64,000 nt of DNA from Cellvibrionales bacterium UBA7375. Its GTDB lineage: Bacteria; Pseudomonadota; Gammaproteobacteria; Pseudomonadales; Porticoccaceae. A model generated the notes under the pieces. It had not been told where the DNA came from and ran no database searches. It was given only the letters and a program-made list of their open reading frames with translations. Each line of letters begins with the position of its first letter. Position 1 is the first letter of the stretch. The position numbers and the translations under genes are program-made. Of this stretch, positions 55,414 through 62,667 are shown in pieces. The DNA is taken from the NCBI GenBank assembly GCA_949487135.1, contig CATAJQ010000002.1, forward strand, positions 80,540 through 144,539, in the 5' to 3' direction.

Positions 55414-58161
55414 TTAGTCTTCAGGGAAAAGCCAGAATGAAGGTATTACATTTTGGTCATTCACATAGAACACTGTATTGTTGTGGATAAAGGAACGCTG
55501 ACGATCATTATTAGACCACCAATTATTAACACCTCCTGATATGTAACCGCTGTTCATAATCGATGCGCTGTCTGAAATGTCCTTGTTAAATAAGTTAAAC
55601 ATATAAAGTCGATTTTCTTGTGCGTAACCGGCAGCTGTATTAGAGGATAGTGTTACCGGTATGGTAAAGCGATCCTGACTGTCGCTGACTTGCTGATAAG
55701 TAAATGCATGACGGTTATATCTTGCAGGAGAATGTATCCAGTCAGAATCTTCACCGATACTGAGTGCCGTCAGCGATACAGGATTATCCATTGCGGCAAC
55801 GTTAAATAATTCTAGTTTAATATATCCATTTTCATCTTGCCCTAAACCTAACAACAAATCATCATTAACTGGATGAAGGAAGTCTGAAAAACCCGTTACC
55901 TCTAACTCACCGGCTATAATTGGGTTTTCTTGTTCTGAGAGATCCAAGACATAAAGAGGGTCGGTTCGCTCAAATGTAACTAAATATAGCGTATCCCCAA
56001 AAAACCTAACCCCATATAGGTCTTCATTAGGCTTACCTATCTCATTAGGGTACTGTTCATTGGGCAATGTGGCCACTTGATCCATAGAGTAGGCGGTTGG
56101 CGAATGTTGCAGAACTGTTAGCTGATGATCTCTATTGTCCTCGGCATCACCGGTCCACATACTACTAACCACTCTCAGGTATCCGTTGTGTTCATTAATA
56201 CGAAAATCAATTTCACCTGAGCCAAACAAATGTCCGTTGACCTCACCAGATCCACTATAGGCAAGGCTAGTGGAGAGATTGAAACGGTGTATCAACGTCT
56301 TAGAATTAGCTCCCCACCCCTCTGTTTGAATAAAGTAAATCGCATTTTGACTGACATAGATTCCAGAGGTGGATTCTAGGTAACAGGTACTATTTACGAC
56401 CTTCTTGTGCTTTACATCAACGGCCACAAGCATGGTCATAGTTGGATAACCATATTGATCGGGTGCTGACTCATGCTCATCGTTAATCATCAAACAATCA
56501 GTTGCATCTAAAAGATCAGTTTCTTGGTTGTTGATAAAAGCTTTTGGCAGCAAATCTGAACTGGAAACATCATTCAGAATTTCTTGATTTGTCGCCTTTT
56601 GGTCAAACGTGGGGAAATCAATATAGTGATGTATTTCTGGGGTGTGGCGAGCAACTAAATACACAAGATCACCTTTTTTACGACTGGTAACAAAACCACC
56701 CTCGACTTCAAATTTCCAATCTAGCTCGGGGTTAGCGACATCTGAAATATCATAAACTGATAACCCTGTGGTCTGTCCTCGCCAAACCGAAGGATCCATA
56801 AAGGCAGTTCCATACATTCCCCACCAGCCGGAAGTACTGATTGATGCAAGCTGATCACCATTAGTATAAAGTCCCTCAATAGTCCGGTTGTCATCGACTA
56901 TAATGTTTCCAGCCTCAGAGACAGACGCTTGGCTTGGGTTAGTTGCCATAATTTTGATTGAACGCAACTCAGGAATAATAGGTTGCAATGGCTCATCAGC
57001 TACAGCCAGTTCTTCACCTACCTCTATCGCATCATCAAATAGGGCAATAGGCTCATCAAAGATAAAACAACAATCATCATACAAACTGTAACTTGGCGCT
57101 ATAAAGAGATGTTCACCATCATATTTAACGAAATCATGTTCATCGATATTTTTTTCTAAAGTATAAGTAGTCGTGAAAGAATCTCCGCCACTTTCCGATG
57201 TAGATGCATCCATTGCCATTTCCGGCATTGCATCCACCGCTATCATATCCATAACCTCACCAAAAGCTCGGTCATAACTTTGGGTAAAGTTTGATGAAAA
57301 TTCTTGAGTGCTTTTCATCTGCACCAACAGTCCTGAAGCTCTGGCCAACAAAAGATCTGGCATCAAAGAGCCAATATATTCTTCAACTTGATCAACATAG
57401 GACCTTGTAGCACTAGTTGCTACTGCACCATTCACCAAGGACTCTCCTCGAACGCCAAAAAGATAGCGTAAGAGCAACAGACCATCCGTTAAAGCATCCA
57501 TTGAGCCATTGCCATCTATATCCAATATAGGTGAAGCCGCATTTAAATAATCCTCAATTTGTTGTGATGATGAGGACGAGTCAGCAGAAATCGCACCCGC
57601 TGTAAGGGCACTTCCTCTTATCCCAAATGCATATCTGAGTAACAATAAACCATCTGTGAGAGCATCGACATCGCCATTTTGATCAAAATCCCACCCATAT
57701 AATTGATCGCTATCAGTATTATCGATGAGATTGAAAGACAATTTCATTGAGCCATGTGCATAACAGTAATACATCAAAGAATTACCACTAAAATCTGACG
57801 GGATAGTGATTGTTAATTGCTCGCCATTTACAATAGATGCGGCACCCTCAACAGCACCTGAGCCATTACTGGAGTATTGAATGTCAGAGTTAGCAACCTT
57901 CCAGTCATCACCTATATTGAAAGCGTGGCCACTATCCGTCCTAATAAAAGTATGGGAATAGCCTTTTTCTAACGACAGCTCGATTGATTCACCATTGGGT
58001 TCAGTCGAAAAAATATAAAAAGGCGATGCAAAAGGATTTGAGTTTAATCGGACGTAAGTGGTCGTGTCATTGGAGAAGCTTGGTATACTCAATGCGCAAA
58101 GTGCCAACGCAACGATCAAATGAGTGATGCTTATACATTTTTTTGTTAATTGATATAACAT
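55414..58161 (-). CDS. Secreted protein: cupredoxin-like N-terminus, two dockerin-like repeats, C-terminal beta-propeller domain
   Basis: Signal peptide; GHAFNIGDDW and YYCYAHGSM; two D-x-D-x-NG-xx-DALTDGLLLLRY repeats; WWGMYGTAFMDPSVWRGQTTGLSVYDISDVANPEL beta-propeller segment (Beta_propel/PF09826-like by pattern). Confidence 0.8.
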   Translation of the reverse strand: MLYQLTKKCISITHLIVALALCALSIPSFSNDTTTYVRLNSNPFASPFYIFSTEPNGESIELSLEKGYSHTFIRTDSGHAFNIGDDWKVANSDIQYSSNGSGAVEGAASIVNGEQLTITIPSDFSGNSLMYYCYAHGSMKLSFNLIDNTDSDQLYGWDFDQNGDVDALTDGLLLLRYAFGIRGSALTAGAISADSSSSSQQIEDYLNAASPILDIDGNGSMDALTDGLLLLRYLFGVRGESLVNGAVATSATRSYVDQVEEYIGSLMPDLLLARASGLLVQMKSTQEFSSNFTQSYDRAFGEVMDMIAVDAMPEMAMDASTSESGGDSFTTTYTLEKNIDEHDFVKYDGEHLFIAPSYSLYDDCCFIFDEPIALFDDAIEVGEELAVADEPLQPIIPELRSIKIMATNPSQASVSEAGNIIVDDNRTIEGLYTNGDQLASISTSGWWGMYGTAFMDPSVWRGQTTGLSVYDISDVANPELDWKFEVEGGFVTSRKKGDLVYLVARHTPEIHHYIDFPTFDQKATNQEILNDVSSSDLLPKAFINNQETDLLDATDCLMINDEHESAPDQYGYPTMTMLVAVDVKHKKVVNSTCYLESTSGIYVSQNAIYFIQTEGWGANSKTLIHRFNLSTSLAYSGSGEVNGHLFGSGEIDFRINEHNGYLRVVSSMWTGDAEDNRDHQLTVLQHSPTAYSMDQVATLPNEQYPNEIGKPNEDLYGVRFFGDTLYLVTFERTDPLYVLDLSEQENPIIAGELEVTGFSDFLHPVNDDLLLGLGQDENGYIKLELFNVAAMDNPVSLTALSIGEDSDWIHSPARYNRHAFTYQQVSDSQDRFTIPVTLSSNTAAGYAQENRLYMFNLFNKDISDSASIMNSGYISGGVNNWWSNNDRQRSFIHNNTVFYVNDQNVIPSFWLFPED
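57358..57693 (-). repeat. Tandem dockerin-like protein repeat (two copies) inside the beta-propeller protein
   Basis: DFDQNGDVDALTDGLLLLRYAFGIRGSALTAGAI and DIDGNGSMDALTDGLLLLRYLFGVRGESLVNGAV. Confidence 0.85.
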
Positions 58162-58307
58162 TACAACACCTCAAAATTTTTATTATTCAACGTTTATACA
58201 ATCTGTCAAAACATCCAAATTTAACTCTGTAATCTGCAAAGATTATGGTACACAGACAAATATATGCCCTTTTGTCCAAAATAGCCAACTGAGTCGTGTT
58301 GATTATC

Positions 58308-58880
58308 TTATAAATCGACATAGTAAAATCCTATTTCAGATACGGATATATCAGCAATATGATCTCGACCAAAGGCAACCACCCCAATACTTTTAATACT
58401 AGCGGATTTAACATTTTTCCTGATCCACCCACTGGATGCAACAAAGTTTTCTAGAGGCAATTTTATTATCCGCCAATTTTCGTTTACATCAAATTCTGCT
58501 TGATAGTATTGCCAGGGTAATAAAGTACCTTTGGTTCTAAGATGAAGATAATATTTCTGGTTATTTCCTTTTACATTGATATAAATACCACTAACACTTT
58601 TTGTGTTGATATTGTGAAGGTTTGTTCTGAACTGGATAAAACCACCATTATTCACAGTACTTACAGTCCCGGTTAAACGAGCAAGGGGAATGTTCTCTTT
58701 ATCTTCAAATGTCAATGTTCCCTGAGAAATACCACCCATAACTTGATCGCTAATATAACTCCAACGTTTCTCTGGCTTGCCATCAAAGTCATCAATTAGC
58801 ATAGGCTTTCCCCATGTTGAAGTGGTCGCACAATAGCCAACAATTAAAACAATTAGCATTTTTAACATTGTAAAAACCAC
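58308..58880 (-). CDS. CIA30 family protein with N-terminal signal peptide
   Basis: LIDDFDGKPEKRWSYISDQVMGGISQGTLTFED, NGGFIQFRTNL; hydrophobic N-terminus MLKMLIVLIVGYCATTSTWG. Confidence 0.85.
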   Translation of the reverse strand: MVFTMLKMLIVLIVGYCATTSTWGKPMLIDDFDGKPEKRWSYISDQVMGGISQGTLTFEDKENIPLARLTGTVSTVNNGGFIQFRTNLHNINTKSVSGIYINVKGNNQKYYLHLRTKGTLLPWQYYQAEFDVNENWRIIKLPLENFVASSGWIRKNVKSASIKSIGVVAFGRDHIADISVSEIGFYYVDL

Positions 58881-59147
58881 CTATCTATTTTTGTATTGAG
58901 TTGGACAGTATGCTCTTAAAACACCAGAGGGACGCTTTGAAAGGTGTTTAGTACTTCTATTAGACACTCTTTTTCGCCATAGTTTGAATGAGCTCAACGT
59001 AACATTCGATCGCATTAATTTGATAACAGATGATTCGTTGATTCCGTAATTGTATTCTATCGCTTCAAAAGGCGTTCGATCTTCCCATGCCATTTCAATA
59101 ATGCGAGATATGTCCTCTGAGGAAAATTGATACTTATTATTAGCCAA
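58881..59147 (-). CDS. DUF2805/TIGR03643-like protein
   Basis: SEDISRIIEMAWEDRTPFEAIEYNYGINESSVIKLMRSNVTLSSFKLWRKRVSNRSTKH; TTG start chosen at 59147 to match the domain start. Confidence 0.8.
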   Translation of the reverse strand: MANNKYQFSSEDISRIIEMAWEDRTPFEAIEYNYGINESSVIKLMRSNVTLSSFKLWRKRVSNRSTKHLSKRPSGVLRAYCPTQYKNR

Positions 59148-59367
59148 GTTATTACCTTTATTCCATATAATGTATAAGAATACGATTACCACGTTTTTTC
59201 GTATCAAAAGGTAATGATCAAAAAGAATCATCGATAATCATCAATGTGATGAAAGTCTAATTTCAATTACAGTTAAATTATAATCATCATAAACCTGATA
59301 TATGTTTATTTAGTTAAGCAAATAATTAATATATAGTTAGGTCATACATACTAATAAGAGGTTTTTA

Positions 59368-62300
59368 ATGCTTAGGCCACTAAAAATAACAAAATTACTG
59401 ACCTTAGTATCTGCCATTATAGTGCTGAGTGGCTGCAATACCGAGAGTCAAGCGACTAATCACACCTCGATGAATTCTGATTTATCAGTCATTCCAAAAG
59501 AAAAACTACTCTCAGTATCAAAAACCATGCGCAGTCAAGCGACCATGGGACCTTCTGGTTGGATGATGGACTGGGATATTGATAAAAATGGCAAAGCTGA
59601 CGCACTGACAGATGGTCTTATGATTTTGCGTTACGGCTTTGGAATTAGAGGTAGCCAGCTTACTTCCGGAGCCATTGCCAGTGATGCGACACTTACCTCT
59701 AATGAAATTGGTGAACACCTTGATGATATGGTCACTGTGGTTGACATTGACAATAATGGACAGTTTGACGCACTTACCGATGGCTTAATTATCTTACGCT
59801 ACTTATTTGGTATTTCAGGAGAGTCTCTTATCAATGGTGCGGTTGCGAGTAATGCTGAACGAGCTTCAGTTCCCGCAATTACAGACTACCTAGTTAACAA
59901 CATGCCGGGTAGTAATTCAGGTGGGTTAACAAACAGTGTTATTATTAACGAGGTTTCATCTTCTAATTCGACATTTGACGATGAAGATGGTGACAGCCCA
60001 GACTGGATTGAACTCTATAACAATAGCAATACAACCTATGATCTGACTGGCTGGAGTATATCTGACGATAATTTAAATCCAGCTAAATGGATCTTCCCTT
60101 CAACCTCACTAGCACCTGGCGCATATTTGCGTGTTTGGGCCTCTGACAAGGACAGAGCGGGTGGAGGCGTGTTCAAGACATTAATTAATCAGGGCGATGT
60201 CTTCCGATATATCATACCAACCTCAAACCCAAGCACCTCATGGGTCAATTTAGGCTTTAATGACAGTGGCTGGCTCCAAGGAGCCAGTGGTTTTGGTTAT
60301 GCAGACGGCGATGACACGACCATAATACCTAATGGCACAAGCTCTGTGTTTGTAAGGAAAGTATTTGCCGTTAACGACCTAGAAATGATGGACAAACTAT
60401 GGCTAGATATTGATTACGATGATGGTTTCGTTGCCTATATCAATGGCGTTGAAATCGCTAGAGCCAATATTGTTGGTAATCGTCCAAGCTATAATGCAGG
60501 CACTATATCAGACCGCGAAGCAACCATGTGGCAAAGCGGAAACCCTACTCGTTTTCCAATTAATAACTTCCAAGAATTACTCAACAATGGCGATAATGTT
60601 CTGAGCATTCAAGTACATAATATCAACTCTAATTCATCTGATATGACGTTAATACCATTCCTCTCAGCCTTTTACTTAGGCTCCACCAACGATGGTATAA
60701 CACCGCCTTCTATTCTTGGCTTTGAAGACCCAAGCTTGCATACAAACTTCAAGATTTCTTCGAGCGGTGAAGAATTAACACTTTATGACAGCAACGGCTC
60801 TCAAATTGACTATATGAATGTTACAGCTATGAACACCGATAACAGCATAGGTCGCTCTCCAATTGACGGAAGTATCTTATTTTTTGAAAACCCAACTCCT
60901 GGAGAGCAAAATCCCTCTATTGGCTTTAGCGGCGCCATTGAAAGTGAAGTTATATTCTCTCATCAAGGTGGAGAATTTAATGGTCAAAGCGTGAGTTTAG
61001 CTGGCGCAGCTGAGGGTGAAGAAATACGTTACACTCTCAACGCAGCCATACCGACTAAGCTTTCTAACTTGTACACCTCCCCTATTATGATCAGTGGAGA
61101 CACCGTAATTCGCGCCAAAATTTTCAAAGACAACCATATACCCTCGCGAACCGATAGCAGAACTTACATTACATCAAACACCCATGACTTGCCGATTGTG
61201 ACTCTTGTGTCTGAGCCGAATAACTTCTTCAGTCAGCAACAGGGAATTTACGAATATGGCCCTGAAGGTAACTATGAGAATTCGCTTCCTTTCTTTGGCG
61301 CCAACTTCTGGCAAGACTGGGAACGCGATATTCACTTTAGTTTTTATGAGCCAACCGGTGAACTAGGTGTTGCACTGGATGCAGGGGTAAAAATATTTGG
61401 CGCATGGAGTCGTGCCAATGATCAACGATCTATGTCGATTCACGCCCGTGGTCGCTACGGCTTCAGCAAATTAGAATACCCCATTTTCCCATCTCTAGAT
61501 TATGACAAGTTTGAGTCTATTGTCCTTCGTGGTGCAGGGAACGACTGGATGAAAACTAATGTCAAAGATGTAATAGCAACAAGTTTAATGGAAGGCAGTG
61601 GCCTTGAATATCAAGCTAATCGATCAGCTGTGGTCTATCTCAATGGTCAATACTGGGGTTTTTATAATATTCGAGAAAAAGTAAATGAGCACTTTCTGGA
61701 CGACAAGATTAACGTCGATAAAAGTGAGATTAATATTCTTACTAACAACGGCGAAATTGTCGAAGGTAGCAACACGGAATATAACGAGTTAATTGATTTT
61801 GTCACTAACAATAGCTTAACTGTTCAATCAAATTATGACTATGTAGCAAGTCAAATTGACATAGATAACTATATTACTTATCAGGTCGCACAAATATATT
61901 TCGATAACACTGATTGGCCGGGCAATAATGTAAAATTTTGGAACTCACCTGAAACTAAGTGGCGCTGGATACTCTTTGACACTGACTTCTCATTTGGTCG
62001 TCCCTGGGAAGGTTCAGCAGCTTACTACAACGATACATTATCATTTGCTCTATATCCTTATGGCGGTGGATGGCCTAATCCAGCATGGTCTACCCTCCTT
62101 GCTCGCAAACTGATGGAAAATACAACGTTTAAAAATAAGTTTATCAATCAATTTGCCGATGAGATGAATACACGATTCGAAGCCGACAATGTCCGTGCAC
62201 ATGTTAATAGTGTTGCAAATTCTGTAAGTTCCGAAATTAGCCGACATTTTGCCCATTGGAGCAATTGGGATAACCGCTCAGAGTATTGGAGAAACCAAGG

Positions 62301-62667
62301 TATGTTGTCCTCCTATGGGGAATGGCAAAATGAGGTAAATAAAATAATAGAATTTACTGATAACCGTTTACCCAATTTGGCCGGCCATTTTAGAAGTTAT
62401 TTTGGAATCGGTGGCATGTTTAATCTTAATATTTCGATTAACAATACTGAAGCAGGTTCAGTGCAGTTAAATTCGCTAACGATTGATAGCTCTAATTGGC
62501 AAGGTGAATACTTTGACTTTATTCCTGTTACATTGACAGCAATACCCAATGAAGGCTATGAATTTGTTGGCTGGCAAGGCTCTGTAAATCAATTTGACCC
62601 TAATGCGACCCTGACAACCTCGCAAAATGCCAATGTTCAAGCCATATTCCAAGCAGTACAAAATTAG
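59368..62667 (+). CDS. CotH-kinase lipoprotein: twin dockerin-like repeats, lamin-tail domain, CHB_HEX_C-like domain, CotH kinase domain, C-terminal InlB B-repeat-like domain
   Basis: Lipobox IVLSGC; VIINEVSSSNSTFDDEDGDSPDWIELYNNSNTTYDLTGWSISDD; YFDNTDWPGNNVKFWNSPETKWRWILFDTDFSFG; GYEFVGWQGSV...NANVQAIF. Confidence 0.88.
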   Translation: MLRPLKITKLLTLVSAIIVLSGCNTESQATNHTSMNSDLSVIPKEKLLSVSKTMRSQATMGPSGWMMDWDIDKNGKADALTDGLMILRYGFGIRGSQLTSGAIASDATLTSNEIGEHLDDMVTVVDIDNNGQFDALTDGLIILRYLFGISGESLINGAVASNAERASVPAITDYLVNNMPGSNSGGLTNSVIINEVSSSNSTFDDEDGDSPDWIELYNNSNTTYDLTGWSISDDNLNPAKWIFPSTSLAPGAYLRVWASDKDRAGGGVFKTLINQGDVFRYIIPTSNPSTSWVNLGFNDSGWLQGASGFGYADGDDTTIIPNGTSSVFVRKVFAVNDLEMMDKLWLDIDYDDGFVAYINGVEIARANIVGNRPSYNAGTISDREATMWQSGNPTRFPINNFQELLNNGDNVLSIQVHNINSNSSDMTLIPFLSAFYLGSTNDGITPPSILGFEDPSLHTNFKISSSGEELTLYDSNGSQIDYMNVTAMNTDNSIGRSPIDGSILFFENPTPGEQNPSIGFSGAIESEVIFSHQGGEFNGQSVSLAGAAEGEEIRYTLNAAIPTKLSNLYTSPIMISGDTVIRAKIFKDNHIPSRTDSRTYITSNTHDLPIVTLVSEPNNFFSQQQGIYEYGPEGNYENSLPFFGANFWQDWERDIHFSFYEPTGELGVALDAGVKIFGAWSRANDQRSMSIHARGRYGFSKLEYPIFPSLDYDKFESIVLRGAGNDWMKTNVKDVIATSLMEGSGLEYQANRSAVVYLNGQYWGFYNIREKVNEHFLDDKINVDKSEINILTNNGEIVEGSNTEYNELIDFVTNNSLTVQSNYDYVASQIDIDNYITYQVAQIYFDNTDWPGNNVKFWNSPETKWRWILFDTDFSFGRPWEGSAAYYNDTLSFALYPYGGGWPNPAWSTLLARKLMENTTFKNKFINQFADEMNTRFEADNVRAHVNSVANSVSSEISRHFAHWSNWDNRSEYWRNQGMLSSYGEWQNEVNKIIEFTDNRLPNLAGHFRSYFGIGGMFNLNISINNTEAGSVQLNSLTIDSSNWQGEYFDFIPVTLTAIPNEGYEFVGWQGSVNQFDPNATLTTSQNANVQAIFQAVQN
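59569..59907 (+). repeat. Tandem dockerin-like protein repeat (two copies) inside the CotH protein
   Basis: DWDIDKNGKADALTDGLMILRYGFGIRGSQLTSGAIA and DIDNNGQFDALTDGLIILRYLFGISGESLINGAVA. Confidence 0.85.

Follow-up and report, generated by a model that had tools for sequence, protein, structure and literature searches.

A twin dockerin-like module on exported proteins of a SAR92-clade genome and its association with cohesin-like domains

The window analysed here, a stretch of 64,000 nucleotides from a 1.44 Mb genome of the SAR92 clade, harbours two divergently oriented genes for exported proteins, a beta-propeller protein and a CotH-kinase-like protein, each of which contains a tandem pair of dockerin-like modules. 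As the first-pass annotation had described, the two carriers are separated only by the genes for a CIA30 and a DUF2805 protein, both confirmed by Pfam. The features of this locus are, in window coordinates:

55414..58161, minus strand: exported beta-propeller protein (PF09826, Pfam E 1e-89), 915 aa, with the twin module in its N-terminal third
57358..57522, minus strand: dockerin-like module, repeat 2 of the propeller protein (aa 214-268)
57526..57690, minus strand: dockerin-like module, repeat 1 of the propeller protein (aa 158-212), a 13-residue calcium-type loop plus helix
58308..58880, minus strand: CIA30-domain protein (PF08547, E 6.9e-26) between both carriers, without the module
58881..59231, minus strand: DUF2805/TIGR03643 protein (PF10985, E 8e-33) between both carriers, without the module
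59368..62667, plus strand: CotH-kinase-like exported protein (LTD, CHB_HEX_C_1 and CotH domains by Pfam), 1099 aa, with the twin module near its N-terminus
59425..59436, plus strand: putative lipobox LSGC of the CotH protein, recognised by eye in the sequence
59575..59739, plus strand: dockerin-like module, repeat 1 of the CotH protein (aa 70-124)
59743..59907, plus strand: dockerin-like module, repeat 2 of the CotH protein (aa 126-180)

The presence of a pair in both neighbours is borne out by these coordinates and by the spacing of the repeats, which amounts to exactly 56 aa in either protein. In the propeller and CotH copies the loop comprises 13 residues with the pattern D-x-D-x-N-G-xx-D-A-L-T-D. 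The extra residue that had been suspected in this loop corresponds to a single-residue gap in the HMMER alignment to the dockerins of Clostridium thermocellum. Compared with the first window module, the remaining three copies show 47-51% identity, and 20 columns are invariant. When the propeller and CotH proteins were scanned with Pfam and NCBIfam, no entry covered the module region; an entry for the module itself was found in neither database, and routine annotation therefore misses it. By eye, the propeller protein begins with a signal-peptide-like stretch. Related species have kept the divergent locus, with identical gene order in three cases (L118, L119, L132) and with variants in which CIA30 and DUF2805 were not detected (L133), an additional module gene lies in between (L131) or only the propeller side is present (L136). 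A lipobox resembling that of the window's CotH protein (LAGC) was seen by eye in L118, and none in L133.

A profile of the four window copies, searched against the whole genome as the first-pass annotation had proposed, retrieved 27 modules on 14 proteins, i.e. 13 pairs and one single module, as well as one fragment beyond these, so that the carriers are many more than the two neighbours. The matches, with E-values from 4.7e-34 to 3.5e-16, lie far above chance, and a profile of the pair gave 14 matches. Besides the two window proteins, carriers in this genome include two GH16 proteins with CBM6, a GH128-like protein (Glyco_hydro_cc), a GH5 protein, a DHOR protein and a second CotH protein. One further carrier (L034) is truncated by the contig end at what reads by eye as the start of a GH3 domain; whole GH3 carriers are present in relatives. 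Across all carriers, the functions comprise GH16, GH3, GH5 and GH128-like glycosidases, propeller, CotH and DHOR proteins, the latter being peroxidase-like, and proteases. The module may be N-terminal, internal or C-terminal. In one locus (L030:7423-13143), a single protein of 1907 aa unites CBM6, GH16, a cohesin-like domain, the twin module and a CotH domain. Module-bearing relatives that carry a name are SAR92 or Porticoccaceae MAGs. The module is rare, occurring in 6 of 343 genomes of an order-level sample and in 4 of 369 genomes of a class-level sample, the own genome being counted in both; a ubiquitous lineage repeat without genomic association, which had been named as a possible outcome, is hence judged unlikely.

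The relationship of the module to dockerins is apparent mainly from profile comparisons. Dockerin_1 (PF00404) recurs as a sub-threshold Pfam match in many carriers; none of those tested reached its gathering score (best 20.9 vs 22.9 bits). First searches of PDB sequences, with few sequences in the profile, were weak or empty, and a profile of 26 pairs gave C. thermocellum dockerins as best matches (E 0.0019 and 0.0024). Among 80 pairs, the calcium-type ligand positions D1, D3 and D13 are conserved in both repeats at 100%, N/D5 at about 90% and D9 at 87-91%. As in dockerins, the calcium loop-helix repeats come in tandem and keep their ligand positions; the loop is one residue longer, and the loop-helix part is tied to dockerins at the level of sequence. 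AlphaFold predicts the propeller pair very confidently (pLDDT 95.6, pTM 0.89). A Foldseek comparison of this model with the PDB, run without a known-dockerin control, gave nothing at E <= 0.001 and no dockerin fold among the 50 matches listed, and Foldseek may be weak on small helical domains. As a confident model thus lacks a PDB fold match, we refer to the module as dockerin-like rather than as a classic dockerin.

Several carriers contain, directly N-terminal of the module, a domain that resembles cohesins. The search for cohesin-like partners in the same genome, also suggested at the outset, yielded 10 matches, some of them partial. Two passed the cut-off of Pfam Cohesin (PF00963) with 33.1 and 27.4 vs 24.1 bits; in L037, it was passed by the domain of a module carrier and by a cohesin-only protein. 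Genomes with copies above the cut-off are G000, G013 and G009, and most copies are marginal or below it. The sole PDB match of the cohesin-like profile was the cohesin of scaffoldin C (ScaC) from R. flavefaciens (E 0.013). An AlphaFold model of a cohesin-module stretch is moderately confident (pLDDT 67) and gives no confident domain arrangement (pTM 0.49); with this model, Foldseek ranked cohesins at the top (E 2e-4 to 4e-4, TMt up to 0.48). Some chains, all contig fragments, contain several cohesin-like domains: four in L099, a large cadherin-repeat fragment from a related genome, and two each in L096, a cadherin-repeat fragment of the own genome, L238 and L243. In 15 cases of a cohesin-like domain preceding the twin module, the linker is mostly about 6 residues long. 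Two copies of the own genome (L097 on G000:C5 and L098 on G000:C38) stop abruptly past a strand of the 'TITFDIN' type; in L097, a stretch resembling the missing C-terminal part lies just upstream of the domain, as if permuted, which may be either an assembly break or a real form.

Genomes with cohesin-like domains are few, and nearly all of them also have the module. Of 50 genomes in the genus, module and cohesin-like domain occur together in 21; 11 have the module only, 17 neither and a single one the cohesin-like domain only, in the form of a disrupted copy with stops inside (Fisher p 2.8e-5, Spearman 0.74, kinship ignored). With the own genome excluded and kinship likewise ignored, the two genomes of the class sample that have a cohesin-like domain both belong to its three module-bearing ones (p 4.4e-5), and three genomes of the order sample share both (p 6e-6). 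In the two shared genomes of the class sample, cohesin-like domain and module are located on the same contigs in separate ORFs. In a further set of 24 genomes, chosen by their module matches, 15 have a cohesin-like domain, among them one MAG of a cyanobacterium and one of a Burkholderiales member, and contamination of MAGs may play a role in this set; ten genomes found by the module alone and not named SAR92 or Porticoccaceae also have the domain. Part of the co-occurrence is due to proteins with both modules. Within the genus, a cohesin-like domain was not detected in 11 of the 32 module-bearing genomes, of which G003 (98%), G015 (99%) and G023 (97%), for example, are fairly complete.

The two modules also meet in gene neighbourhoods, as separate cohesin-only and module-only genes adjoin in seven loci (L227, L230, L244, L246, L247, L251, L108). 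In L108 and L251, module-bearing proteins near the cohesin gene display collagen-like triple-helix repeats. Anchor signals, called by a simple script that was written once the proteins had been inspected, were assigned to 23 of 35 judged cohesin-only proteins vs 2 of 30 module-bearing ones (p 6e-7). They are of the lipoprotein, JDVT-CTERM (with MrtJ) or T1SS type; the own genome has a lipoprotein-like cohesin-only protein (L037) and one with a T1SS-type C-terminus (L096). Since the CotH protein of the window has a putative lipobox, a module-bearing protein may itself be anchored, and the split is a tendency rather than a rule.

MrtJ scores above its cut-off beside cohesin genes in L246, L247, L252 and L227, and homologues lie near cohesin genes in L107, L248, L251, L229, L232 and L233. 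JDVT-CTERM on the cohesin-like protein reaches 28.2 bits (cut-off 27) in L246 and stays just below in others, so that L246 is the locus where protease and target both exceed their cut-offs. Taken alone, MrtJ is weakly associated with the cohesin-like domain (p 0.045), and it is present above cut-off in eight of the 11 module-bearing genomes without a detected cohesin. That these hide a diverged cohesin beside MrtJ was considered and rejected: of 19 MrtJ regions, most of those outside G031, G009, G063 and G064 have no JDVT-type neighbour. Among the eight, only G031 has a JDVT-type protein beside MrtJ, truncated by the contig end with its N-terminus outside the sequence. As MrtJ mostly has no cohesin neighbour in the cohesin-less genomes examined, the JDVT link is not universal. 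JDVT-type proteins beside MrtJ gave no cohesin-like match in G009, G063 and G064; they are large (1901-2337 aa) and end in a JDVT-type C-terminus (L271, L269 and L270, respectively). The only MrtJ match of the own genome (G000:C29:93249-93524), with 57.8 bits below the cut-off and with internal TGA and TAA codons, looks like a decayed copy.

Taken together, the twin module is probably the dockerin-like half of a non-cellulosomal docking system of the cohesin-dockerin type that keeps exported proteins on the cell surface. Such a system had been guessed from the window alone, and the guess is supported by cohesin-like domains in the same genome, their fold match, the co-occurrence and the adjacent genes. 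Accordingly organised, exported cargo such as beta-glucan-type glycosidases, DHOR, propeller and CotH proteins would carry one pair of calcium-loaded loop-helix repeats and would be captured outside the cell by the beta-sandwich of a cohesin-like domain. The latter would reside on anchors, namely lipoproteins, proteins with a JDVT-CTERM that the protease MrtJ would process, and large cadherin-repeat adhesins, which could offer up to four such domains. Proteins with both modules may act as linkers that chain or branch the complex. As an outcome, exo-enzymes would be held on the cell surface and brought together, conceivably to the benefit of the cell. The more far-reaching picture, in which a streamlined free-living ocean bacterium assembles a surface complex akin to the cellulosome for its exo-enzymes, out of cadherin-repeat scaffoldins, lipoprotein or JDVT-CTERM anchors and a dockerin-like module whose fold is not yet among those solved, is put forward more tentatively, as somewhat less than an even bet.

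Among the other explanations, the one that fares best, though we consider it unlikely, regards the twin module as a stand-alone, calcium-stabilised spacer or folding domain that has no partner and was spread by shuffling, with the cohesin-like domain as a co-travelling adhesive domain. It would account for the 11 genomes with modules and no detected cohesin, for the variable position of the module and for the pair model without a dockerin fold match, but leaves unexplained why the cohesin-like domain, itself rare, is hardly found outside genomes with the module, why it occurs in separate neighbouring genes and why anchors are biased towards cohesin proteins and not module proteins. It is still less probable that cohesin-like domain and twin module of one chain form a fixed unit, comparable to an X-module/dockerin dyad, while the partner of the module is another. 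The mostly short linker and the frequent C-terminal position fit such a unit; however, many proteins have only one of the two, and these lie side by side in L227, L230, L244 and L246, and the AlphaFold model gives the two domains no confident arrangement. An export or sorting function, by which the module would direct its carriers into a secretion route, had also been considered in the first-pass annotation; it agrees with the exported appearance of the carriers and is nevertheless very improbable, since the module is tied to no fixed protein end and most intact carriers start, by eye, with a signal-peptide-like stretch of their own.

To our knowledge, retention of enzymes on the cell in the manner of cellulosomes is known mainly from anaerobes. 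If the docking system proposed here holds true, cohesin-dockerin assembly would extend to abundant ocean bacteria, and the docking of SAR92 exo-enzymes would bear on the question of who profits from released sugars. For North Sea blooms, SAR92 has been named as one of the gammaproteobacterial groups that probably contribute most to the degradation of algal matter (PMC8371827). In the literature searched, no paper naming both SAR92 and dockerin was found.

The closest known systems include that of Saccharophagus degradans, a marine polysaccharide-degrading bacterium for which 2 dockerin-like and 6 cohesin-like ORFs were noted in 2008 (PMC2386152); these ORFs are likened here by description only, and that paper describes no system. 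The JDVT-CTERM/MrtJ sorting pair is presented as a two-gene neighbourhood in PMC11980579 (citing Haft 2024), which makes no mention of cohesin. The loci described here share MrtJ and JDVT-CTERM with this pair and differ from that account in that the target carries a cohesin-like domain and module genes lie near. Non-cellulosomal cohesin- and dockerin-like modules were surveyed by Peer et al. 2009, as cited in PMC9012536, and ANME archaea have dockerins on exported proteins as well as proteins that combine one dockerin with as many as 5 cohesins (PMC9012536). These modules, those of Archaeoglobus fulgidus and ANME included, share the idea of cohesin-dockerin pairing outside cellulosomes, whereas lineage, cargo and anchors differ here. 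Similar in architecture is the cellulosomal type I system of C. thermocellum and relatives, in which enzymes bear the calcium-loop/helix repeats in tandem, proteins that are larger or anchored have the beta-sandwich cohesins, and linkers possess both modules; its dockerins are the nearest PDB sequences of the module, and cohesins are the nearest folds of the putative partner. In contrast to this system, the loop has 13 instead of 12 residues, the repeats span 56 aa each, compared with a compact dockerin domain of ~60-70 aa, the pair is without a PDB fold match, and the gene set is that of planktonic marine gammaproteobacteria, with a cargo that is not aimed at cellulose.
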